A DNA stretch of 64,000 nucleotides, from the IMG/VR virus record IMGVR_UViG_3300047375_001083, positions 20,038 to 84,037 of that record. The stretch is one strand, 5' to 3'. The notes below the pieces were generated by a model that saw only the letters and a list, made by a program, of their open reading frames with translations, made no database searches and was not told where the DNA came from. Shown here in pieces: positions 6,770-62,737 of this stretch. The position numbers and the translations under genes were made by a program. This DNA comes from a virus. Position 1 is the first letter of the stretch. Each line of letters begins with the position of its first letter.

Positions 6770-7011
6770 TTAAATCTGTCCTCGAAAATGTTTAAGATTT
6801 TTTCCGATAAGATGTCGAAGAGAAGCTCTACTTTGAGAAAGAAAAACAGGACGAAAGAGGGTTTGTGTACGGCGATTACTCTCGTAAACATTTCGTGCTG
6901 TTTTTCAGTCATTTTATGGATCTCATTCTGAACGGAGATGAGGTTGCCTTCTTCGTCTATGACGAGAAACACCAGGCTCGCCTCTTCAATGTCTTTCTCA
7001 TTCATGATCAT
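6766..7011 (-). CDS. Small hypothetical protein
   Basis: 81 residues, first gene of a short leftward operon with the P-loop kinase (4-nt ATGA overlap). It has an acidic N terminus and a hydrophobic patch at about residues 53-66 (FVLFFFLKVELLF), possibly a buried helix or membrane-peripheral segment. The ribosome binding site AAAGAGGACT precedes the ATG. No domain is recognised. Confidence 0.65.
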   Translation of the reverse strand: MIMNEKDIEEASLVFLVIDEEGNLISVQNEIHKMTEKQHEMFTRVIAVHKPSFVLFFFLKVELLFDILSEKILNIFEDRFK

Positions 7012-7044
7012 AGTCCTCTTTGTTGGGGAGTTTTCTCTAAGAGC

Positions 7045-7092
7045 ACTATAACCACTTTACCGATTCTTATCCGCGTTTGAAGTGGTGATAGT
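7045..7092. promoter_or_regulatory. 13-bp inverted repeat in the divergent control region
   Basis: The arms at 7045-7057 and 7080-7092 are complementary except for one central position, with 22 nt between them. The repeat lies in the 140-nt gap between the leftward gene starting at 7011 and the rightward helicase gene starting at 7152, so it could be an operator or an mRNA hairpin. A TCTTTAT box at 7094-7100 overlaps its right edge and lies 52 nt before the helicase ATG. Confidence 0.5.
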
Positions 7093-10896: not shown

Positions 10897-11376
10897 TTAT
10901 CGGTCGTCTCCTGAGCCACCTAGAACTTCCCTGTTCTTTCGGCTGATGAGCTTATCCATGTTCAGCTCCGCTACTTCAGAAAGAGAACCGCCGAGCTCAT
11001 CTACGAAGCGAGCGCAGTACCAAAGGACATCACCGATTTCCTTTACCATTTGAGATCGGGTTGTGGGGCTCACTTGACCGTCTTCATCTCGGATGATCTT
11101 CTTAAGTTTCCCCGCTACTTCACCCGCTTCAGATGCGAGCCCTAAACACAGATACTCAAGGGCTCTGCTTTGAGGGTAGATAGCGGTTTGCTTAGTGAAA
11201 TCTTGATACTCATTGAAAGTAATATCTGAGTAGACGGAGGCGTTGACTTCGTTGAGATAGTCAAAGACGGCGCGCTCTTTCTCTTCTTCTGTCATGTCAT
11301 TCTTAGTGACGAGAAACTCGATCTCTTCCCTAGAGACGATGATCGTTTTCCCATCCTCATTAAAGGCGTACTTCAA
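10897..11376 (-). CDS. MazG-like nucleoside triphosphate pyrophosphohydrolase
   Basis: 159 residues. The MazG-type four-helix metal site is visible: LASEAGEVAGK (about residues 80-90) and EIGDVLWY (about residues 113-120), which supply the Glu/Asp Mg ligands. The family hydrolyses (d)NTPs to monophosphates; phage versions are thought to clean nucleotide pools or lower alarmone levels. The N-terminal ~50 residues are an extra segment. The start appears to be TTG overlapping the previous stop (TTGA), which suggests coupling. It is the last gene of the leftward block. Confidence 0.85.
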   Translation of the reverse strand: MKYAFNEDGKTIIVSREEIEFLVTKNDMTEEEKERAVFDYLNEVNASVYSDITFNEYQDFTKQTAIYPQSRALEYLCLGLASEAGEVAGKLKKIIRDEDGQVSPTTRSQMVKEIGDVLWYCARFVDELGGSLSEVAELNMDKLISRKNREVLGGSGDDR

Positions 11377-28965: not shown

Positions 28966-29440
28966 GCTAGGACTTTTAGCGCAACGGCTGAAAGACTTAG
29001 CTGAGGTAAGCCTTGAAGACATCTACATACCGATCTTAAGAGGAGGTTCTTCAAAAGCGACCTTTCTTATAGAAGGGTATATCTTCGTCAAGTCTGGCTA
29101 TCCCTCAGCTAAGTATTATGACTTAGCGAGGTCTGTTTACATAGACAGCATGATCAGTCAATACGACACCCGAAGCGACATGATATCTCAAGGAACGATA
29201 AGCGAGTCCGACTTAAGAAAGATGATCTCTGAGGCTTACAGTCGTGGTGGGAACTACCGATTGGGGGATGAGGTTGAAATCACGGGGGGTGACTTTAAAG
29301 GGTGCGTAGGGATTGTCCTCGATATCTTGGAAAAAGAAAGCGAGTTTGAGGGTGGACGGTACTCGATATTGATCACTCTGAGGAGCGCGGAAGTGATTCT
29401 CACAGTGGATTCTTTCTCAGTAGGAGATTCTAATGGATAG
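28904..29440 (+). CDS. NusG-like transcription elongation/antitermination protein
   Basis: 178 residues. The N terminus begins TWVVMQTSPKGEEEAK, and its strand-helix order with LIEGYIFVKS fits an NGN domain. The C-terminal part has NYRLGDEVEITGGDFKGCVG, a typical KOW motif (residues about 120-140). NusG paralogues bind RNA polymerase and alter pausing or termination. It overlaps dnaX by 62 nt and has its own GGGAG ribosome binding site. It may promote read-through of the long phage operons. Confidence 0.82.
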   Translation: MRKRSTWVVMQTSPKGEEEAKLGLLAQRLKDLAEVSLEDIYIPILRGGSSKATFLIEGYIFVKSGYPSAKYYDLARSVYIDSMISQYDTRSDMISQGTISESDLRKMISEAYSRGGNYRLGDEVEITGGDFKGCVGIVLDILEKESEFEGGRYSILITLRSAEVILTVDSFSVGDSNG

Positions 29441-37135: not shown

Positions 37136-40100
37136 ATGGCTGTAAGAAGAGTACAATTACGCAGAGGCACTACTGCTGAGAACAATGCCTTTACGGGCGC
37201 AATCGGTGAGGTCACGGTAGATACCACTACTGAGTCTATCCGCGTCCACAACGGCGCAGATGCGGGAGGCGCAGACCTTCTTCGCGCCGATATGTCTAAC
37301 AATGCTTCAATCACCTCAAACATAGGGGTGACAGGATCAATCGTGATTGGTCCTACTCTTGGAGCCAACACGATCACATTAGGTCAAGCCAACTCGATCA
37401 TTTCTATTCCTGGGACACTTAACGTAACCACTCAGAATACTACGAATGATCTTCTCGTTCAGGATAGAGTTATCGTCTTGGCTGATGGGAGTGAGGGTAA
37501 CGCCCACGATGCGAATGGAACAAACGGAGACTCCATCGGCATCATCTTCACACGACCACTTCAGACTGATGGAGAGGGTGGTGGGGCTCAGAACCCTGGC
37601 GTTTTCTATTTCGATGAAGAGAACAACTATTTCGCTCTAGGTACTGCTGACGTGACCGAGAATGACAACTCTTGGAACGCTGACTTTACATCAGGGACTC
37701 TCTCTCTTGGATCTCTTAATGTTAACGAAGGAAACATCACTAACGTGGGTGACATCGCCCTAGATAGTATCTCCGCCGATAACAACACCATTTCTATTAG
37801 TCTTACGGACAATCAAGCGTCGTCTCTTGACATTACTGAGGGAGCTAACTCTTACCTCAAGTTCGTAACAACTGACGAGGGTGAGAAAGTGGTCTTCGGG
37901 AAAGTATTTGAGAGTGTCTCAGGGTCTGCCGTAGGGACTCTTACTCTCGCTGACGGGTCGATCACTGACTCAGGTGGGGCGATTTCTTTCGGGGATGAGA
38001 ACCTCTCAACTACGGGAACTCTCGGAGCGGGTGTGGCTACACTTGCTTCAGGCTCGACAGTTGGAACTCTTACTCTCGCTGATGGCTCGATTACTGACTC
38101 AGGCGGTTCGATTTCTTTCGGGGATGAGAACCTCTCAACTTCAGGTACTCTCGGAGCTGGAGCAACCACTGTCACTTCATTAAGTGTTACTGACGGAAAT
38201 ATCACGAATGTAGGCGATATCTCCCTAGATAGCATTTCTGCTGACGGAAATGCCATTTCTATCAGCCTTACAGACAACCAAGAGTCTTCACTCGACATTA
38301 CTGAGGGTGTTAACTCTTACCTCAAGTTCGTAACAACTGACGCAGGTGAGAAAGTGGTCTTCGGAAAGGTTTCTGAGGGAGTCTCAGGGTCTACCGTAGG
38401 AACTCTTACTCTCGCTGACGGGTCGATTACTGACTCAGGTGGAGCTATTTCTTTCGGGGACGAAAACCTCTCAACTACGGGAACTCTCGGCGCGGGGGTA
38501 GCCACACTTGCTTCAGGATCTACCGTAGGAACTCTTACTCTCGCTGACGGGTCGATTACCGACTCAGGGGGCGCTATTTCCTTTGGGAACGAGAACCTCT
38601 CGACAACAGGTACTCTCGGCGCGGGGGCTACCACTGTCACTTCATTAAGTGTTACTGACGGAAATATCACTAACGTAGGGGATATCGCCCTCGACAGCAT
38701 TTCTGCTGACGGCAGTACCCTCACCATCACTTTGACGGATAACGAAGCTACCGCGCTCAATATCACAGAAGCGGGTAACTCTTACCTTAACTTCGTCACC
38801 ACGAATGAAGGTGAGAAGGTAGTCTTCGGGAAAGTGTCTGAGGGAGTCTCAGGGTCTACCGTAGGAACTCTCACTCTCGCTGACGGCTCTATTACTGACT
38901 CAGGTGGAGCTATTTCTTTCGGGAACGAGAACCTCTCAACTACGGGAACTCTCGGAGTGGGGTCTGCCACTGTCACTTCATTAAGTGTTACTGACGGAAA
39001 TATCACTAACGTAGGTGATGTCGCCCTTGATAGTATTTCTGCTGATGGGAATACCATTTCTATCAGTCTTACGGATGCTCAAGCAACGGCTCTCGACATC
39101 ACTGAGGGTGTTAACTCTTACCTCAAGTTCGTAACAACTGACGCTGATGAGAAGGTAGTCTTCGGGAAGGTTTCTGAGGGAGTCTCAGGATCGTCTGTTG
39201 GAAATCTTACTCTCGCTGATGGCTCGATTACTGACTCAGGGGGCGCGATTTCCTTTGGAGATGAGAACCTCTCAACTACGGGAACTCTCGGATCGGGCGC
39301 AACCACTGTTACCTCGTTAAGTGTTACTGATGGGGACATCACGAATGTAGGGGATATCGCCCTCGATAGTATCTCCGCCGATGGAGACACCCTCACCATC
39401 TCTTTAACAGATGCTCAGGCGACTGCTCTCGACATCACTGAGGGAGCTAACTCTTACCTCAAGTTCGTAACAACTGACGCTGATGAGAAGGTAGTCTTCG
39501 GGAAGGTTTCTGAGGGAGTCTCAGGATCGTCTGTTGGAACTCTTACTATTGCCGATGGTTCGATCACTGACTCAGGTGGTTCGATTTCTTTCGGGGATGA
39601 GAACCTTTCTACCACAGGTACTCTCGGAGCGGGGGTGGCTACACTTGCTTCAGGGTCTACCGTAGGGACTCTTACTCTCGCTGACGGTTCTATTACCTCC
39701 ACAGGTGGGACAATCACTTTTGATGATGAGAACCTGACCACTACAGGTTCTATCACCTGTACGAACATTACCGTAAACGGCACTCAGACTATCATCAGTA
39801 CAACCAACCTTTCTGTTGCAGATCAAGTGATTGAGCTCAACAAGGACATTGGGGATAATAACAATAACTCTGATATCGGGATCTTCCTGAATAGAGGTCT
39901 TGAGGACGATGCTCTTATCATTTGGGATGAGGGTGAAGGTAAATTCTTACTAGGCACTCACAGCGGTGCGGTAAATGGAACTACTACCGACTTCTCAGGT
40001 GTTGTGGGTCTTTCTAAGGCTGGTTTACTTGTCAGCACTCTTGAGGCTACAGGCACAGTCTCGGGAGCAACAGGATCTACCTTTGGAGATCTTACTCTTG

Positions 40101-42550
40101 CTGATGGGTCGATCACTGACTCAAGTGGAGCTATTTCTTTCGGGGACGAGAACCTCTCGACAACAGGTACTCTCGGCGCGGGAGCTACCACTGTCACTTC
40201 ATTAAGTGTTACTGATGGGGACATCTCCAACGTAGGGGACATCGCCCTAGATAGTATTTCTGCTGACGGAAATACCATTTCCATCAGTCTCACTGATAAC
40301 CAAGCGTCTTCACTCGACATTACTGAGGGAGCTAACTCTTACCTCAAGTTCGTAACTACAGACGCTGATGAGAAGGTAGTTTTCGGGAAGGTGTCTGAGG
40401 GAGTCTCAGGATCGTCTGTTGGAACTCTTACTCTCGCTGATGGCTCGATTACTGACTCAGGGGGCGCTGTTTCCTTTGGGGACGAAAACCTTTCTACTAC
40501 AGGTACTCTCGGGGCGGGCGCAACCACTGTCACTTCATTAAGTGTTGCTGATGGAGACATCAGCAACGTAGGGGATATTGCTCTCGATAGTATTTCTGCT
40601 GACGGGAACTCGATCACCCTTAACCTCACTGATAACCAAGCGTCTTCACTCGACATTACTGAGGGAGCTAACTCTTACCTCAAGTTCGTCACCACTGACG
40701 CTGATGAGAAGGTAGTCTTCGGGAAGGTTTCTGAGGGAGTCTCAGGCTCGACAGTTGGAACTCTTACTCTCGCTGACGGGTCGATCACCGACTCAGGGGG
40801 CGCGATTTCCTTTGGGAACGAGAACCTTTCTACTACAGGTACTCTCGGGGCGGGGTCTGCCACTGTTACCTCGTTAAGTGTTACTGATGGGGACATCACT
40901 AACGTAGGGGATATTGCTCTCGATAGTATTTCTGCTGACGGAAACGCGATCACCCTTAACCTCACTGATAACCAAGCATCATCACTTGATATCACAGAGG
41001 GTGTTAACTCTTACCTCAAGTTCGTAACAACTGACGCTGGTGAGAAGGTAGTCTTCGGAAAGGTTTCTGAGGGAGTCTCAGGCTCGACAGTTGGAACTCT
41101 TACTCTCGCTGACGGCTCTATTACTGACTCAAGCGGAGCTATTTCCTTTGGAGATGAGAACCTCTCAACTACGGGAACTCTCGGAGCGGGCGCAACCACT
41201 GTTACCTCGTTAAGTGTTGCTGATGGAGACATCACTAACGTAGGCGATATCTCCCTAGATAGTATCTCCGCCGATGGAAATACCATTTCTATCAGTCTTA
41301 CGGATGCTCAGGCGACTGCTCTCGACATCGCAGAGGGAGCTAACTCTTACCTCAAGTTCGTCACCACGAATGAAGGTGAGAAAGTAGTCTTCGGGAAAGT
41401 GTCTGAGGGAGTCTCAGGCTCATCTGTTGGAACTCTTACTCTTGCTGACGGTTCTATTACCGACTCGGGGGGGGTTATTTCTTTCGGAGATGAGAACCTT
41501 TCAACTACAGGGTCACTCACATCGAACAGTCTTACTGTTAGCGGTGGAGGTGTAGCTCTAGGTGATGGAAGCAACGCGACCTCTATTTCTGTGACTACTC
41601 AGACTGACGAAGACACCGTAGGTGAGAACCTCACTATTTCCTCGGGTGTTGGTAATGGGACAGGCACAGGCGGTTCGGTTATCTTTCAGACAGGTGGAGA
41701 TAATGCGGGTGCTCTTTCAACTGTTCTGACTCTTAGCTCTGCAAACAAGGCTACGTTTACGGGCGAGGTAGAGACAGGCAGTAACCTTATTCTTGGGAAT
41801 AACGTCATTCAGAACTCAGACGGAGAGACTACGATCACTCTGACAGCAGATCAGAAAGTGACTCTCTCGGGCGATCTTGATGTCACAGGTGTGATCACAG
41901 GAAACAGCGCGGTTTCAGGGTCTTTAAGATTCAAAGACCCTACCCTATATGTGGGCTACACTAATACAGCATCAACTCGCGATCTCGGTTTTGTAGGTGC
42001 TTACGGTGATTCTAACTTTGCTGACTTCCTTATGGGTGTCGTATATGAGGTAGACAACACCGTAGGCGGTAAGTCAGGCGCGTTTAAGATTTTTCATGGT
42101 CGAGCTGACATAACTGAGCCGGCTGCATCTTATTCCGTTCCTGACTCAGATCTCGCTCCCCTTGACGTAGGTAGCTTGAATGTCAAGAACGGTGGTCTTA
42201 CAGTCGCTAAGACTACAGGTCTTACAGGTGACGAGGGCGTGACTAACGCGCCTCTCTTTAGCACCAACACTAAGGCTTTCCAAGTCGCGGTGACAACCGA
42301 TACCGCGATAGCAGATGATGCTCACTCAATCGGATTTGTGGTCAATAACACTTCAGTGTTATCTACAAGCGTCATCATGGCTACAGTGGCCTCTGCTGAT
42401 AATGGAGGAGACATTCTCGCTGAGGGCGGTATCGAGGTATACGCGCATTCGATCACGAACGCTACGAGCTTCGAGTTCAGCCTTGTCAACAGGATAGGTT
42501 CTCAGATTAACGCAGACAGTGTGATCACGATCAACTTTGTGATCCTCTAA
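37136..42550 (+). CDS. Giant repeat tail-fibre/adhesin protein 2
   Basis: 1804 residues. The N terminus (VQLRRGTTAENNAFTGAIGE and the following VTVDTTTESIRVHNG) is the 'RRGTTAEN' head found at the start of many marine phage tail proteins. Residues about 195-1430 consist of nine copies of a ~112-residue beta module (SISADGNTISISLTDNQ, SYLKFVTT, EKVVFGKVSEGVSGS, LADGSITDSGG). A different segment with an IIWDEGEGKFLLGT element separates copies 5 and 6. The C-terminal ~370 residues are non-repetitive and include SARFKDPTLYVGYTN-like sequence, probably the receptor or trimer-forming tip. The ribosome binding site is AGGAG. Confidence 0.88.
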   Translation: MAVRRVQLRRGTTAENNAFTGAIGEVTVDTTTESIRVHNGADAGGADLLRADMSNNASITSNIGVTGSIVIGPTLGANTITLGQANSIISIPGTLNVTTQNTTNDLLVQDRVIVLADGSEGNAHDANGTNGDSIGIIFTRPLQTDGEGGGAQNPGVFYFDEENNYFALGTADVTENDNSWNADFTSGTLSLGSLNVNEGNITNVGDIALDSISADNNTISISLTDNQASSLDITEGANSYLKFVTTDEGEKVVFGKVFESVSGSAVGTLTLADGSITDSGGAISFGDENLSTTGTLGAGVATLASGSTVGTLTLADGSITDSGGSISFGDENLSTSGTLGAGATTVTSLSVTDGNITNVGDISLDSISADGNAISISLTDNQESSLDITEGVNSYLKFVTTDAGEKVVFGKVSEGVSGSTVGTLTLADGSITDSGGAISFGDENLSTTGTLGAGVATLASGSTVGTLTLADGSITDSGGAISFGNENLSTTGTLGAGATTVTSLSVTDGNITNVGDIALDSISADGSTLTITLTDNEATALNITEAGNSYLNFVTTNEGEKVVFGKVSEGVSGSTVGTLTLADGSITDSGGAISFGNENLSTTGTLGVGSATVTSLSVTDGNITNVGDVALDSISADGNTISISLTDAQATALDITEGVNSYLKFVTTDADEKVVFGKVSEGVSGSSVGNLTLADGSITDSGGAISFGDENLSTTGTLGSGATTVTSLSVTDGDITNVGDIALDSISADGDTLTISLTDAQATALDITEGANSYLKFVTTDADEKVVFGKVSEGVSGSSVGTLTIADGSITDSGGSISFGDENLSTTGTLGAGVATLASGSTVGTLTLADGSITSTGGTITFDDENLTTTGSITCTNITVNGTQTIISTTNLSVADQVIELNKDIGDNNNNSDIGIFLNRGLEDDALIIWDEGEGKFLLGTHSGAVNGTTTDFSGVVGLSKAGLLVSTLEATGTVSGATGSTFGDLTLADGSITDSSGAISFGDENLSTTGTLGAGATTVTSLSVTDGDISNVGDIALDSISADGNTISISLTDNQASSLDITEGANSYLKFVTTDADEKVVFGKVSEGVSGSSVGTLTLADGSITDSGGAVSFGDENLSTTGTLGAGATTVTSLSVADGDISNVGDIALDSISADGNSITLNLTDNQASSLDITEGANSYLKFVTTDADEKVVFGKVSEGVSGSTVGTLTLADGSITDSGGAISFGNENLSTTGTLGAGSATVTSLSVTDGDITNVGDIALDSISADGNAITLNLTDNQASSLDITEGVNSYLKFVTTDAGEKVVFGKVSEGVSGSTVGTLTLADGSITDSSGAISFGDENLSTTGTLGAGATTVTSLSVADGDITNVGDISLDSISADGNTISISLTDAQATALDIAEGANSYLKFVTTNEGEKVVFGKVSEGVSGSSVGTLTLADGSITDSGGVISFGDENLSTTGSLTSNSLTVSGGGVALGDGSNATSISVTTQTDEDTVGENLTISSGVGNGTGTGGSVIFQTGGDNAGALSTVLTLSSANKATFTGEVETGSNLILGNNVIQNSDGETTITLTADQKVTLSGDLDVTGVITGNSAVSGSLRFKDPTLYVGYTNTASTRDLGFVGAYGDSNFADFLMGVVYEVDNTVGGKSGAFKIFHGRADITEPAASYSVPDSDLAPLDVGSLNVKNGGLTVAKTTGLTGDEGVTNAPLFSTNTKAFQVAVTTDTAIADDAHSIGFVVNNTSVLSTSVIMATVASADNGGDILAEGGIEVYAHSITNATSFEFSLVNRIGSQINADSVITINFVIL
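37700..41430 (+). repeat. Nine-copy 336-bp coding repeat array in fibre 2
   Basis: The marker CTTACCT(C/T)AA recurs at 37851, 38316, 38781, 39117, 39453, 40338, 40674, 41010 and 41346. The spacing is 336 bp six times and 465 bp twice (an extra 129-bp half-module), with one 885-bp step that contains the unique segment. Copies are highly similar at DNA level, so unequal crossing-over can change the number. Confidence 0.92.
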
Positions 42551-48304: not shown

Positions 48305-48613
48305 ATGGGTATGACGACACCTGTAACCACTGAAGAGTGGGTTGGCTATATTCTCGACGAGATCCCTACTGAAGACCTGATCCATCAGAGTAGGGTGGCG
48401 GGATCTAATGCTTTCCTTCGCACGTTGAAAGAGGAGGGATTTGAAGCCTCTTCGCTCGCTTCAATCCATCGAGCTTTTGCTCTAAGATTTGTCCGTGAGG
48501 GAATGCGTGTCCCATCTCGAATGGACGGCTGTCACATTGACTATAATGCGATGGTTGAGAATCCTGATAGTGAGCTGAAAGAGAAGATCGCGGAGTTCAA
48601 CGCAGAGAGTTAA
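48305..48613 (+). CDS. Hypothetical protein
   Basis: 102 residues, helical, acidic, unrecognised. Its ATG lies 5 nt after the SNF2-type stop and uses the GGAG that overlaps that stop, so the two are co-translated and may work together. It ends by overlapping the convergent gene by 4 nt. Confidence 0.7.
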   Translation: MGMTTPVTTEEWVGYILDEIPTEDLIHQSRVAGSNAFLRTLKEEGFEASSLASIHRAFALRFVREGMRVPSRMDGCHIDYNAMVENPDSELKEKIAEFNAES

Positions 48614-49014
48614 GAATTCTCAACGACGTCTATAACCCCTTCAGGGAGGAAATAGACTCTCGCTGAGGCACTGACACCTCTCTCTTCGACAACCTTGCTT
48701 AGAAGCGCGTATGAGGCTTCTGAGAGGGCGTATCGAGTGACGCCTCCTTCTCGGCTAATCACTACGCCGTTGAGAGAGGTCTTTATGTAGTCGTGTAGGG
48801 GCGTACTCTCTAAATAAGAGTGATAGAGATTGATCAGCCCTGTCACAGCGTGTTCTTTCAGCGCCGACTCTACTTTCCGATCAAAAGTCTTGTAGAACTG
48901 ATTCCTCAGAGAGAGAAGCTCTTTGATGTGATTCTCTAGAGCCTTCGGAAACTCTACAGCGAGTAGCTCGGGCGGTTTACTTTCTGTGTTCGCTCTGAAC
49001 TTTCTTAACCACAT
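48610..49014 (-). CDS. Hypothetical protein
   Basis: 134 residues, mostly helical, basic N terminus, unrecognised. The last gene of a three-gene leftward group (49315 to 48610). The stop of the tiny upstream gene lies 2 nt before its ATG. Confidence 0.65.
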   Translation of the reverse strand: MWLRKFRANTESKPPELLAVEFPKALENHIKELLSLRNQFYKTFDRKVESALKEHAVTGLINLYHSYLESTPLHDYIKTSLNGVVISREGGVTRYALSEASYALLSKVVEERGVSASARVYFLPEGVIDVVENS

Positions 49015-49016
49015 GA

Positions 49017-49115
49017 TCAGATCCCTTTGACGCGGTTTCGGATACAGCGCGTCAGCGTGACATACTTGAAGTCACACTTATAGAAGGTCGTCCCATCTGC
49101 AATCGAGAATCTCAC
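49017..49115 (-). CDS. 32-residue basic peptide
   Basis: A GTG start at 49115 overlaps the stop of the upstream gene (GTGA) and is preceded by AGGAG. The frame ends at 49017, 2 nt before the next ATG. The peptide is basic with two cysteines (YKC, RC) and ends NRVKGI. Tight spacing on both sides and the ribosome binding site argue that it is a real, coupled micro-gene. Confidence 0.5.
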   Translation of the reverse strand: MRFSIADGTTFYKCDFKYVTLTRCIRNRVKGI

Positions 49116-49315
49116 GAAAGTGCTCCTGAAAAATCTGATGGGGAAAGCTCATTATCCTCTAGATCATCAGGTTGAAGTTCTTCAAACAGGCTGTCCCTGT
49201 AAGTCCCTCCGATGAACTTAGCCCTCTTAAGAGAGCTTGTGTTGAAGATAGACCCTGATAGGTCTATCCCTCCGAAGTCCATATCATCTAGATTTTGTTC
49301 TGAAAAGTCGATCAT
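49112..49315 (-). CDS. Small pentapeptide-repeat-like acidic protein
   Basis: 67 residues. The middle reads NLDDMDFGGIDLSGSIFNTS and then LKRAKFIGGTY, that is, a few A(D/N)LxF-type pentapeptide steps (about residues 8-40) that would form one or two coils of a right-handed quadrilateral helix. The rest is acidic. Longer proteins of this kind mimic DNA, but this one is short. First gene of its group; ribosome binding site weak. Confidence 0.6.
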   Translation of the reverse strand: MIDFSEQNLDDMDFGGIDLSGSIFNTSSLKRAKFIGGTYRDSLFEELQPDDLEDNELSPSDFSGALS

Positions 49316-49325
49316 GATTCTTATC

Positions 49326-49381
49326 CCTAGTGTTCTTTCATGCTTCCACTAGGTAGGAGCCTATAAGTCACCTATATAGGT
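49326..49381. repeat. Inverted repeats at the left edge of the gene-free region
   Basis: CCTAGTG (49326-49332) pairs with CACTAGG (49347-49353), and a perfect 12-bp palindrome ACCTATATAGGT lies at 49370-49381. They sit between the leftward gene start (49315) and the candidate RNA, where divergent promoters or an operator would be expected. Confidence 0.55.
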
Positions 49382-49386
49382 ACTTT

Positions 49387-50160
49387 CTTATCTATAGTCT
49401 TTTTTTTCTAAAGTAGTTTCTATAAGTAGGTTCTTTCTTAACCTACTTCTTTCTTTTTTTAGTGTATGTTCATCTATAGTATCTGTTCATGTATGTGTAG
49501 CTGTACTAGTTGGAGTAGTATTACTTGTAGATGTAGTAAGACTAGTAGTTGTTGTAGTATGAGCTGTATGTGTTGTTGTAGTAGTAGGACTATTAGTTGT
49601 AGGTGTAGTTGGTTGAGGATTAGTAAGAGTACTTGTAGTAGTACGAGTAGTTTTTCTTTTGGTTTTTAGGAGGACTTACTAAGTCTTCTCTAGTTACTTA
49701 CTTCTAATTCATATTCTTCTTAGAAGAGTAACTATACTTCCTATCTCTACTAAAGAGAGATACTAAGATAGTTTCTATCTGAGACAACCTACTAGGTAAG
49801 GGAAAGAATAAACCTAGAGGCTCACAAGAGACTATCAAGGGAGTGAGAAAGAGCAGACTGTTTATCAGGTTCTATCAACGGAGTTGACCAACCTACAGGG
49901 TACTTACTCTGAGAGAGTAGTTGCCGAGTCTCGTTACTGATTGAGATCCATCGGTACGCTTTTCAACCGAGTGACTTACGTCACATGAGGGTTTCTGCCC
50001 TAAGAGCTTTCTCAAGCTCAGTAGGGTTGCCTCCTTTTAGTCGGGATAAGATTATCCTCAGTTTCGCTAGTCGGAGGGAAGAGCCCATGAGACTCAAACC
50101 GTTGTTGAGTCAGATCGTGAACCTGTATATCGGAGGCAGAGACGAGGTTCAAGCAGAAAC
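49387..50160 (+). ncRNA. Candidate large structured non-coding RNA
   Basis: No credible gene lies between 49315 and 50241. Instead, the plus strand carries a chain of stem-loops. Examples: 9 bp at 49424-49448; a compound 14-bp stem at 49691-49734; 7 bp at 49742-49762; 6 bp at 49766-49780; 5+5 bp at 49867-49894; 6 bp at 49905-49919; 5 bp at 49951-49970; 5 bp at 49971-49984; 6 bp at 50004-50019; 5 bp at 50044-50057; 7 bp at 50091-50111; and 6 bp at 50119-50150. A CTTATC box at 49387-49392 could start it, and a TTCTGATAT promoter for the next operon lies just after it. Size and phage setting recall the GOLLD and ROOL RNA classes, but I cannot match their consensus. Confidence 0.6.
49466..49660 (+). 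repeat. C-poor, three-base-periodic low-complexity tract
   Basis: The plus strand is dominated by TGT, AGT and TAG-type triplets with few C residues. One plus frame would give a Cys/Ser-rich 67-mer and one minus frame a Thr-rich peptide. Neither has a ribosome binding site, and the minus frame has no standard start. It lies in the 5' part of the candidate RNA and may be a microsatellite-like expansion. Confidence 0.65.
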
Positions 50161-50203
50161 TTAAGATAACCTCCTGTATGGATATCTCTTACCTTGATGG
50201 GTG

Positions 50204-50215
50204 TTCTGATATAGG
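50204..50215 (+). promoter_or_regulatory. TTCTGATAT-box putative promoter for the clamp-loader/RNR region
   Basis: TTCTGATATAGG lies 26 nt before ATG 50241 and is identical in its core to the boxes before the SSB and RecD-like genes. Its position supports 50241 rather than 50178 as the start of the delta' gene. Confidence 0.6.
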
Positions 50216-50240
50216 TAAGGGTCACAAGAGAGGAGACAGC

Positions 50241-50825
50241 ATGATTTTCATTCATCATGGAAGGGGCGTTAAGAACGGCCTCGCTGAAGAGCTAGAGGGC
50301 TATGAGCTTGTTCATGAGCCGATCACAAATCTGAAGGTAGACGGAGTGAGGCTATTGATGAGCCTCTTCACTCAGGTTTACCCCCATAAGAATCCCTGTC
50401 TAGTAGCAGGTCCACTCGATGAGGCTGATCCGTCAGCCCTTGATATTCTTCTTAAGCGCATCGAAGAGCCTACGCCCAACAGCCCAACCCTTTTCCTATG
50501 GGCGAATGACTTAGGTGGCGTTCCTAATACTATCCGATCTCGCTGTGGAGAGAAGTTTCATTACGCGCCCCGACAGGAGCATGATCTCTATGAAGACGCA
50601 GAGGCTCTGTATGGCGCTCTGAGCGAAGATAACCTCTTAAGAGGACTCAAGGTACTTGCGAAGGTGGAGAAGGGATCTGAGAGGGCATTTATGGAAGCCT
50701 ATCTTGAAGTCCTTATCAAAGAGGAGGACACCGACTTGTATACAGACGAGCTGAGGTCACTCTTAGCGAGGAAGAGGGTTTCTCACTCCGCCCTCAGTGG
50801 ATACTTTCTAGGAGTCCACAAATGA
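50241..50825 (+). CDS. holB: DNA polymerase III delta' (HolB)-like clamp-loader subunit
   Basis: 194 residues. It lacks a Walker A motif, as delta' subunits often do. It has the typical LVAGPLDEADPSALDILLKR followed by IEEPTPNSPTLFLWANDL and then TIRSRCGEKF (the conserved SRC arginine-finger motif). The start follows GAGGAGACAGC; an upstream in-frame ATG at 50178 would precede the promoter box. It overlaps the delta gene by 4 nt. Shorter than E. coli HolB (334 residues), it probably keeps only the core and a short collar. Confidence 0.85.
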   Translation: MIFIHHGRGVKNGLAEELEGYELVHEPITNLKVDGVRLLMSLFTQVYPHKNPCLVAGPLDEADPSALDILLKRIEEPTPNSPTLFLWANDLGGVPNTIRSRCGEKFHYAPRQEHDLYEDAEALYGALSEDNLLRGLKVLAKVEKGSERAFMEAYLEVLIKEEDTDLYTDELRSLLARKRVSHSALSGYFLGVHK

Positions 50826-51757
50826 AGAAAGAACACAGAGTCATCTACGGTACGTTCAAAGACCTCGCCTTTCATGCTTCAAGAGAAATCATCAACGATG
50901 CTTATGCGCTCGGATGGGAGGTGATCTACCTAGATGGAAAGAAATCCTCTAAGAGTGAGATCGAGGAAGCCTTTGATTTGGGACTCTTTGACGTGGTGGA
51001 TAAGCTCATCGTGATCTCGAACCCGACAGGGTTAAAGAACCTCGCACACATCCCTCAGAAAGAGGGCTTCGGTGTTCTCTATTTAGCAGACCGCGTAGTG
51101 CCGAAAGCACTCATGGGAGTCAAAAAGAAAGACTGTTACGAGATACCTAAGAGTAAGAAGAAGCTCGCGGAGTGGTATGCGAAGTTCTTTCAGAAGATGG
51201 TGGCGGATCAGGGGAAGCAGATCAGTCTGTCTATCTGTGAGAGTGTGGTTCAGCGAGTAGGTCAAGATGTTGGAGTCTTAACCTACGAGGCTCTGAAGAT
51301 CGGCTACGTCGCTGAGGGGAGTGAGGTCACTCCCATAGAGGTCTTGTCGGTGATTGCGCCCTTGAAAGAAATGGATGGAGTGCTTCTGACTGATGCGGTG
51401 ATCTCATGGAATCCGACTAACTTTCTTAAAACTTGCGCTCGCTTTGAGAAGAACAGAGACAAAGACCCGACGATGGGATTGGTCGCGGGTCTACTTCACA
51501 AGAATATAGTTCAGCTCTTATCGGTAAGACTTTGTATCGACAGAGGGGTCACTTCTGTGCAAGGTATCTCTGAAGAAATAGGCGTTCAAAGTTGGCTTGT
51601 GGGTGATGTGCTCGTTCCTAGAGCGCGTAGGTTCACTACAAAAAAATTGAGAGAAATCTTAGGTGTCCTCTATCATTGCGAAAACCTTGCAATTAGCGGA
51701 GTTGTGTCGCCGTTTTCGGCGTTCAAAACGGGGTTGCTCCGTCTTATGGTTTCTTAA
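50822..51757 (+). CDS. holA: DNA polymerase III delta (HolA)-like clamp-loader subunit
   Basis: 311 residues, similar in length to HolA. Family layout is visible: an N-terminal region without a P-loop (VIYLDGKKSSKSE; LFDVVDKLIVI), a middle DVGVLTYEALKIGYVA, and a C-terminal collar with HCENLAISGVVSPFSAFKTG. Delta opens the sliding clamp. ATGA-type overlap with delta' indicates coupled synthesis. An intrinsic terminator follows. Confidence 0.8.
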   Translation: MKKEHRVIYGTFKDLAFHASREIINDAYALGWEVIYLDGKKSSKSEIEEAFDLGLFDVVDKLIVISNPTGLKNLAHIPQKEGFGVLYLADRVVPKALMGVKKKDCYEIPKSKKKLAEWYAKFFQKMVADQGKQISLSICESVVQRVGQDVGVLTYEALKIGYVAEGSEVTPIEVLSVIAPLKEMDGVLLTDAVISWNPTNFLKTCARFEKNRDKDPTMGLVAGLLHKNIVQLLSVRLCIDRGVTSVQGISEEIGVQSWLVGDVLVPRARRFTTKKLREILGVLYHCENLAISGVVSPFSAFKTGLLRLMVS

Positions 51758-61738: not shown

Positions 61739-61886
61739 ACCGCTTTGTGAGCAAGTCGTAGACAAGATAACTTTCTGTCTCGGCGCGCGAGTTCCTTTGG
61801 GCTCTTGTAGTAGAGAATCGGCTGAGCTTATCTTAAACTCAGAGTGCGACGCTGTACTTAGATACATCAGGGGAGAGATCCCTTGA
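61647..61886 (+). CDS. Small lipoprotein
   Basis: 79 residues from ATG 61647, or 78 from the adjacent ATG 61650, after a perfect AGGAGG site. It has a type II signal peptide: basic MKK start, hydrophobic core ILTAVASVITL, lipobox LSAC. The mature ~60 residues carry five more cysteines. It overlaps the cyclase start (TTGA). It may be an outer-membrane lysis (spanin-like) or exclusion protein; an Rz1-like proline-rich composition is absent. Confidence 0.75.
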   Translation: MMKKMILTAVASVITLSACAEEADLTPKEVKPLCEQVVDKITFCLGARVPLGSCSRESAELILNSECDAVLRYIRGEIP

Positions 61887-62737
61887 ACTACGAATTGACG
61901 ATGAAAGAGAGGTACTTAGCCATAGTCCTCTTGGACATCATTGGTTCAACTGCGTTTGTTCAGAAATACGGCGCACAGAAAGCGGCTCAGTGGTTTCAGT
62001 TCCATGACCGACTCGCGAGGAGCTTGTGCTACAAGTTCAACGGTCGCGAGATTGACAGGTCTGACGGGTTTCTCCTTTCTTTCGACACCATTATAGATGC
62101 GGTCAACTTCGCCCTTCATTACCAAAAGAAAGTGCCTCCTAAGACTCGTCTACAGACGAGGATCGGAATCCATTGGGGGCGCGTCATCGAGGTTCAACAG
62201 GATGATGTCTTTGTAGGGGCGGGTGCTAAGAGGATTGAGCTAGAGGGTCTAGCTAAGAATATCGCCGCGAGGACGATGAGTGTGTGCGCGGAAGGCCAAG
62301 TGCTTTTGACTGAAGAGGCTATGGGAAAGACGAGAGGGAGAGTAAATATACACACTCCTAAAGGTACTAGGTACGTCTGTGTCGGTCTTTACCGATTTAA
62401 GGGCGTGAAGAAGCCTCAGAAAATATTTGCAGTGGGGGAGTCTATTGAGTCTCTTCAGCCTCCTAAGAGTTCCGAGAAAGTAAAGAGGCTCGGAGGTCCG
62501 AAGTACATCAGGTCGAGGGCTAGGGACAGAAAGCTGAAAGAATGGGTGGCTTGGGTCTTTTGGAGAGTAGCATTCATCGCTTCAGTATTTTGGATTTACA
62601 TACTCTTTCAGATTATAGTGCGCCCTATGGCTAGAAATATGTTTCTAGGGCTCCCCCTCTATATGCCTGTTGTAGACGAGACTTATGCTTTCCTTGTCTA
62701 TGTGTGGCAAGATCTGATCAAGATAATTAAGGGGTAG
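61883..62737 (+). CDS. Membrane-anchored class III nucleotide cyclase
   Basis: 284 residues. The catalytic domain (residues about 10-185) has VLLDIIGSTAFV (first metal Asp), REIDRSDGFLLSFD (second metal Asp), IGIHWGRVIEV, and LAKNIAARTMSVCAEGQVLL with the transition-state Asn and Arg. The residue before the second Asp loop that usually selects adenine or guanine is atypical, so the product may be cAMP, cGMP or a pyrimidine cyclic nucleotide. One or two membrane segments follow at about residues 225-250 and near the C terminus. The start is TTG with GGGGAGAG upstream, overlapping the lipoprotein stop. The next gene is also a membrane protein. Confidence 0.85.
   Translation: MNYELTMKERYLAIVLLDIIGSTAFVQKYGAQKAAQWFQFHDRLARSLCYKFNGREIDRSDGFLLSFDTIIDAVNFALHYQKKVPPKTRLQTRIGIHWGRVIEVQQDDVFVGAGAKRIELEGLAKNIAARTMSVCAEGQVLLTEEAMGKTRGRVNIHTPKGTRYVCVGLYRFKGVKKPQKIFAVGESIESLQPPKSSEKVKRLGGPKYIRSRARDRKLKEWVAWVFWRVAFIASVFWIYILFQIIVRPMARNMFLGLPLYMPVVDETYAFLVYVWQDLIKIIKG

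Follow-up and report, generated by a model that had tools for sequence, protein, structure and literature searches.

A conserved structured element, probably RNA, beside the clamp-loader genes of phages

To our knowledge, few large structured RNAs of phages are known. In the parts of PMC12286853 drawn on here, GOLLD is described as a large RNA of many stems that occurs in phages, part of it a variable linker and its function unknown, and ROOL as large, pseudoknotted and phage-borne, with a disordered linker that has little similarity across homologues; excerpts of PMC13282480 report that phiKZ expresses non-coding RNAs. The element described here lies in a 64,000-nt stretch of viral DNA (the window, meaning the whole stretch that was analyzed) taken from an 84-kb virus record; the 8 kb compared around the element recur unchanged within a 275-kb IMG/VR contig (L001). 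The region matches none of the 4227 families of Rfam 15 (GOLLD, ROOL, group I intron, RNase P and tmRNA included), even at E<=5, in keeping with the possible new class that an earlier note on this DNA had raised; in five relatives, a search at E<=1 gave six miRNA or snoRNA matches and nothing else, none of them reaching its gathering score. ARAGORN finds no tmRNA in the window, and the 64 kb hold no tRNA genes. No description of the element was found in literature listings that carry the beginnings of abstracts and leave most subscription papers outside their coverage, and a word search of PMC12619734 matched no passage. An element new to Rfam that is large, conserved, structured and carried by phages is supported, and it is probably a new structured element made of RNA.

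The gene-free region and its neighbors

The earlier note had pointed to nearly 900 bp without a gene as a candidate large non-coding RNA. The gap is in fact longer, at 925 bp (49316-50240), and lies directly upstream of a gene for a Pol III delta-prime-type clamp-loader subunit. Because an ATG at 50178 is not conserved and the delta-prime gene of the relative L002 starts at an ATG aligned with 50241, we take 50241 as the true start and extend the gap to 50240. By a greedy gene call this is the largest gap in the window, even with a doubtful 67-codon ORF (49466-49669) counted as a gene, which leaves 571 bp versus 467 bp for the next gap (28966-29432); 10960-11372 (413 bp) and 61868-62275 (408 bp) follow. 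The left neighbor in the window is a minus-strand ORF of 67 aa that starts at 49315. From left to right, the region holds some hairpins (one terminator-like on the plus strand), a tract and a folded core:

49316-50240, no strand: whole gene-free region, from the minus-strand 67-aa ORF to the delta-prime gene
49424-49448, plus strand: 9-bp hairpin with a T-rich run, terminator-like; seen in the window
49487-49675, no strand: triplet-phased tract, nearly C-free on the plus strand (G-free on the minus strand), at the left edge of the fold in 10/10 members
49666-50215, strand left open: folded core
50241-50825, plus strand: delta-prime-like clamp-loader subunit gene, adjoining the element in 10/10 members
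50822-51757, plus strand: delta-like clamp-loader subunit gene (PF21694, E 0.0011, below the cut-off)

Pfam matches among the window genes include one RecA-like protein, one DnaX-like and one delta-prime-like clamp-loader subunit, UvrD-like and RecD-like helicases and one SNF2-type helicase, and both ribonucleotide-reductase (RNR) subunits are present (PHROGs). In a tblastn search of 50,697 phage records, delta-prime and delta each had a single distant relative, both in one record, and nothing matched 1349 aa of the SNF2-type helicase. Farther to the left, 37136-42550 encodes an 1804-aa protein with an N-terminal major-tropism-determinant domain (PF18454).

Signals had also been proposed at both ends of the region. 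The letters of a TTATC-type box are present at the left end (49321) but are not kept in L002, and the replication-type promoter placed at the right end was not recovered, as 48500-51000 contains no sigma-70-like site in a scan for the sigma-70 type only. Across the window, TATAA/TATAAG is ~5-7 times enriched in the 70 nt upstream of genes on both strands, at variable distances from the start codon, and is perhaps a phage promoter box.

Relatives of the element and their covarying stems

Relatives were obtained through delta-prime and RNR searches, and identical or nearly identical contigs were merged. Twelve distinct phage loci carry a close delta-prime gene, and ten of them have the element: the window, L002, L073, L076, L061, L066, L087, L088, L094 and L097, on contigs of up to 376 kb. 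Since L087, L088 and L094 are closely related (delta-prime identity 96-98%), these ten members do not amount to ten independent cases. L077 lacks the element, its place being taken by an ORF followed by 66 nt of A+T-rich sequence, and the L091 contig is too short on that side, beginning 248 nt before the delta-prime gene. L063 and L067, found by RNR matches only, were left out of the count; L063 has no delta-prime match in the stretch examined. Two more distant loci, L053 (LR745208.1) and L142, have no tract; L053 also matches neither of the covariance models described below (R1, R3), and L142, the single distant match of a genome scan, was checked for the tract alone. Exact-motif scans of IMG/VR returned 47 and 5 stretches, significant only for the phage of the window and for L002; a match in L017 (E 0.013) lies inside a coding gene and was taken as chance.

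The left neighbor varies across members. It is a minus-strand ORF of 67, 192, 134, 439 or 105-115 aa, or in L097 a Thr-rich one of 82 aa; L073 and L076 have a plus-strand gene there instead (113 and 115 aa). In L087, L088 and L094, three extra hairpins lacking a T-run are seen by eye between the tract and the left-hand gene, and given these the element may be longer in that subgroup. Several side observations concern the same loci. The nrdA (RNR large subunit) matches of L066/L075, L097 and L077 are split into two parts 0.7-1.1 kb apart, which suggests an intron or intein; the 485-kb phage L053 has, at ~6900-7050 and near clamp-loader genes, CRISPR-like repeats ending in GTGGATTGAAAC (by eye); and L097 has at 1526-1626 a long near-perfect hairpin with an A+T-rich loop and a miRNA-like Rfam match below the gathering score.

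No protein frame is conserved across the ten elements in blastp comparisons of their 220 stop-free segments (E<=0.01); a conserved frame was among the outcomes that, by the earlier note, would refute its proposal. The window and L002 share one 25-aa match and have none with the other eight members; the close pairs L073/L076 and L061/L066 match in many frames on both strands, and L061 or L066 gives some matches with the L088 kin.

The core of the window contains the following features:

49673-49685, no strand: hairpin beside the tract (GACTT/AAGTC)
49742-49762, no strand: 7-bp hairpin; L073 and L076 have a 7-bp hairpin of different sequence
49844-49848, no strand: pseudoknot strand 1 (TGAGA), partner 50010-50014; covaries among the window, L002, L073 and L076
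49867-49894, no strand: stem S1 (AGGTT/AACCT) with inner stem S2; 6/7 pairs changed on both sides
49905-49919, no strand: hairpin S3
49951-49970, no strand: hairpin TCGGT/ACCGA; 3/5 pairs changed on both sides
49971-49984, no strand: hairpin S5 (GTGAC/GTCAC); 4/5 pairs changed on both sides
49998-50026, no strand: hairpin S6, its loop containing pseudoknot strand 2 (50010-50014, TCTCA)
50030-50077, no strand: stem S8 (CCTCC/GGAGG) enclosing an inner hairpin; one C-A mismatch each in L073 and L076
50091-50111, no strand: hairpin S9 (GACTCAA/TTGAGTC); a stem with other letters in L002, L073 and L076
50126-50213, no strand: possible closing helix, TATATC (50126-50131) with GATATA (50208-50213), by eye; L087, L088 and L094 have a counterpart

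The many stems first noticed are there, with ten hairpins of 5-7 bp within 49673-50111 and more to the left (e.g., 9 bp at 49424-49448), but the single-sequence fold barely beats shuffles: over 888 bp, z is -1.86 on the plus strand (1/20 shuffles as good) and -2.42 on the minus strand (0/20), and for the 550-nt core it is -3.71 and -1.80, respectively. Counting stems in a single sequence is by itself weak evidence. That the stems exceed chance follows from covariation in the relatives, the check that had been proposed for them.

Group A (the window and L002) and group B (L073 and L076) are homologous by sequence, as profiles of either find the other (E 4e-9 to 1e-6). A covariance model built from the window and L002 alone (R3) finds the unseen L073 and L076 with 60.5 and 49.1 bits (E 2.7e-16 and 7.2e-13), and a sequence-only model scores the same two at 28.4 and 17.5 bits (E 2e-7 and 5e-4), so that structure adds ~32 bits each, a gain that is partly built in because the information target of the structured model is higher. 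An R3 search of the genome records missed the L073 copy (a 7-bit match elsewhere only), which a separate R3 search finds; an R3 match in L077 (15.5 bits, E 0.008) is antisense within the delta-prime gene and was taken as chance. In the four-row A/B alignment, which is fitted to the structure model, 17/25 pairs are changed on both sides (shuffles average 9.5, and 0/500 reach 17), 96% of 99 cells are paired, and controls with slid partners give 0-3 such pairs; one of five measures, the count of further pair types, is not above shuffles (328/500 reach it). A wobble-symmetric scan found, in addition, a pseudoknot helix that joins 49844-49848 to the S6 loop, reading UGAGA/UCUCA in the window and L073, UGUGA/UCACA in L002 and UUAGA/UCUAA in L076; a stem of this type arises in 0/100 column shuffles.

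Group C (L061, L066, L087, L088 and L094) occupies the same place with a different sequence. The covariance model R1, built on group C without L097, finds the unseen L097 (54.2 bits, E 1.8e-12). With L097 included, the fitted alignment has 10/23 pairs changed on both sides (0/500 shuffles), 97.8% of 134 cells paired and at most 2 pairs in slid controls; the count of further pair types is again within the shuffles (296/500 reach it). The unfitted five-row alignment is weaker, with 5/23 pairs changed on both sides (16/500 shuffles reach 5) and a covariation score reached by 0/500. A search of that whole alignment for stems with at least two compensated pairs found none; outside the R1 stretch, L087, L088 and L094 share one stem (AUCUGA/UCAGAU, AGCUGA/UCAGCU and GACUGA/UCAGUC).

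In each of the four subgroups, and on either strand, RNAalifold energies are better than those of shuffled columns (60 shuffles each, z between -4.4 and -7.9). The two-sided pairs in these folds outnumber every shuffle only for group A on the plus strand (25 vs 24) and for L087/L088/L094 on both strands (5 and 6 vs 3), and do not for group B. Compensatory changes keep pairs in homologues, as expected of a structured RNA, in the fitted alignments of both A/B and C. R1 finds no A/B member and R3 no C member, and so we do not claim one family by sequence; a single MAFFT alignment of all groups was discarded as unreliable between groups. Place, tract and arrangement make a common origin of A/B and C plausible. 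What the ten members have is a conserved fold of ~375-550 nt (~860 in L097) with covarying stems, at a fixed place beside clamp-loader genes.

The triplet-phased tract and the choice of strand

The three-base-periodic, C-poor tract picked out by the earlier note is more strongly periodic than any other of 638 samples of the window (20.3 vs 5.8 at the 99th percentile), with 3% C at 49507-49626. Each of the ten members has its counterpart: the lowest-C 120 nt of every element (C 0-10%) are three-periodic, with a signal 8-21 times the mean power that is reached by 0/300 letter shuffles per member. One triplet phase has at most 7% G+C in 9/10 members, and the next is richest in G on the plus strand (the phase called by G is ambiguous in L061). 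The letters drift across the ten members, while the base exclusion and the three-base phase stay. We know of no other RNA with a long tract that nearly excludes one base type and keeps a three-base phase.

The strand was approached from several sides. Among 40 four-base loops, seven are GNRA on the minus strand and one on the plus strand; of the seven, the single hairpin S5 accounts for four, the pseudoknot loop for one and a 4-bp stem for another. The S5 loop on the minus strand reads GUAA, GAAA, GAAA and GUAA in the four A/B members, varying at the free position alone, and L066 has a GCAA loop on that strand. The tract is also less paired on the minus strand in 10/10 members (0.45-0.86 vs 0.31-0.44, in a window shifted for L087, L088 and L094). 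Folding z is lower on the plus strand in six members (the window, L002, L073, L087, L088, L094) and on the minus strand in four (L076, L061, L066 and, in part, L097). Wobble pairs, folding energy and the share of A in loops give no clear answer, the wobble pairs of a broad test being strand-symmetric (58 on the plus strand vs 68 on the minus strand). Tetraloops and the less-paired tract give the minus strand something just short of an even chance; the plus strand, favored by constant delta-prime adjacency and the lower z of six members, has a clearly smaller one, and an element of DNA with no RNA strand seems unlikely. In the model helices, which were chosen from Watson-Crick pairs, wobble pairs fill 2/233 cells; because this near-absence is odd for RNA and expected of DNA hairpins, it leaves room for a DNA role.

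Explanations of the element and comparison with known systems

A structured RNA of some kind is likely. Of the large phage non-coding RNA first proposed, the conserved structured element stands, through its homologues, covariation and pseudoknot, and it may act as a free non-coding RNA, an mRNA leader or a DNA element. Tentatively, we favor a free non-coding RNA. The element would be transcribed, slightly more probably from the minus strand and thus divergently from the delta-prime gene; the RNA would act as non-coding, its rigid fold carrying a long linker or tail that is single-stranded, and may be made together with the replication genes. Such a layout recalls GOLLD and ROOL, in which, by the portions of PMC12286853 consulted, linkers that are disordered and not conserved connect the folded parts.

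On the plus strand, the fold could instead be a cis-acting leader, the 5' untranslated region of an operon of delta-prime, delta and (in many members) RNR, tuning its translation or transcription. We consider this rather unlikely, although the constant neighbor fits it as well as or better than a free RNA: all ten members have delta-prime next, in one constant orientation, whereas the left neighbor changes. The possible closing helix, with TATA-rich pairs at a comparable place in other members (by eye), lies ~18-36 nt upstream of the delta-prime ATG in nine members (by eye), and no terminator-like site separates the fold from the delta-prime gene in the window. However, a leader leaves the triplet-phased tract unaccounted for and has the GNRA loops on its opposite strand, and TATAAG boxes just before delta-prime in L061, L066, L087, L088 and L094 (by eye) make an own promoter of that gene possible. 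The regulatory leaders and riboswitches known to us are, moreover, far smaller.

Both DnaA and RecA-like proteins bind to single strands three bases at a time, and the element could act at the DNA level, for example as a replication origin whose tract is an opening or filament-loading site and whose fold-backs act in single-stranded DNA or in an R-loop transcript. Covariance-model searches give one strong match per record in nine phage records, the element sits among replication genes, and L061, L066 and the L087 kin have a divergent gene junction at this place; the tract, where one triplet phase is A/T and another mostly G, the scarcity of wobble pairs in the model helices and their strand symmetry in the broad test point the same way. 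Against this, GC skew keeps its sign across the region within the 64-kb window, a covarying pseudoknot requires a folded single strand, a Pfam scan of 18 window proteins, out of 77 called genes, shows no DnaA-like initiator, and the comparison with the DnaA-trio draws on abstracts. We regard the DNA reading as improbable, and still more so a new type of replication-control element, in which a pseudoknotted RNA (or fold-back DNA) domain would be joined to a strictly triplet-phased single-stranded platform, and a filament protein (RecA/DnaA-like, three bases per protomer) assembling on that platform would start or load the adjacent Pol III-type replisome.

It is very unlikely that the tract encodes, on the minus strand, a Thr/Ser/Pro/Asn-rich peptide or N-terminal extension, with a non-AUG start from the folded RNA. 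The Thr-rich ACW frame is open in most members, has the fewest stops of the six frames (5 vs 17-100 over ten tracts of 126 nt) and runs on in frame into the left-hand gene in L066 and L061, but it has no ATG, GTG or TTG at all in the window, L073, L088 and L094, and its starts lie after the repeat only in L002, L061, L066 and L076 and within it in L087 and L097. The window has a second minus-strand frame that is equally open, and no minus-strand gene lies there in L073 or L076. ACC and ACG make up 1/32 of the Thr codons of the window tract versus 33% in 11 window genes. Because no start precedes the repeat and, in the window, the wobble letters depart from phage codon use, we do not call the Thr-rich frame a gene. 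Chance or decayed sequence without function, to which the weakly unusual single-sequence folding might point, is hardly credible, as it is contradicted by covariation that 0/500 shuffles reach in an element kept at the same place in ten members.

The family is found on long phage contigs, tied to replisome genes and absent from Rfam, and its two covariation-defined folds and its tract are open to direct test. In the parts of the sources consulted, GOLLD resembles it in being large, many-stemmed and phage-borne, with a variable linker, and ROOL in being large and phage-borne, with a pseudoknot (here in A/B) and folded parts joined by a disordered linker. GOLLD often lies near tRNA genes, whereas this element lies beside a clamp loader in a window without tRNAs and has no Rfam match (E<=5 in the region, E<=1 in five relatives). 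ROOL is a multimeric RNA cage; the element differs from it in having no Rfam match and in a tract of its own that is compositionally strict and triplet-phased. Like the DnaA-trio of bacterial origins, the tract has repeated trinucleotides such as TAG on one strand; a DnaA-trio consists of few triplets, in contrast to a tract of 120 nt and more, many triplets here are of the TTG and TGT types, and the scanned proteins include no DnaA. With long 5' leaders and riboswitches the element shares a fold immediately upstream of a gene, which is the same gene in each of the ten members.
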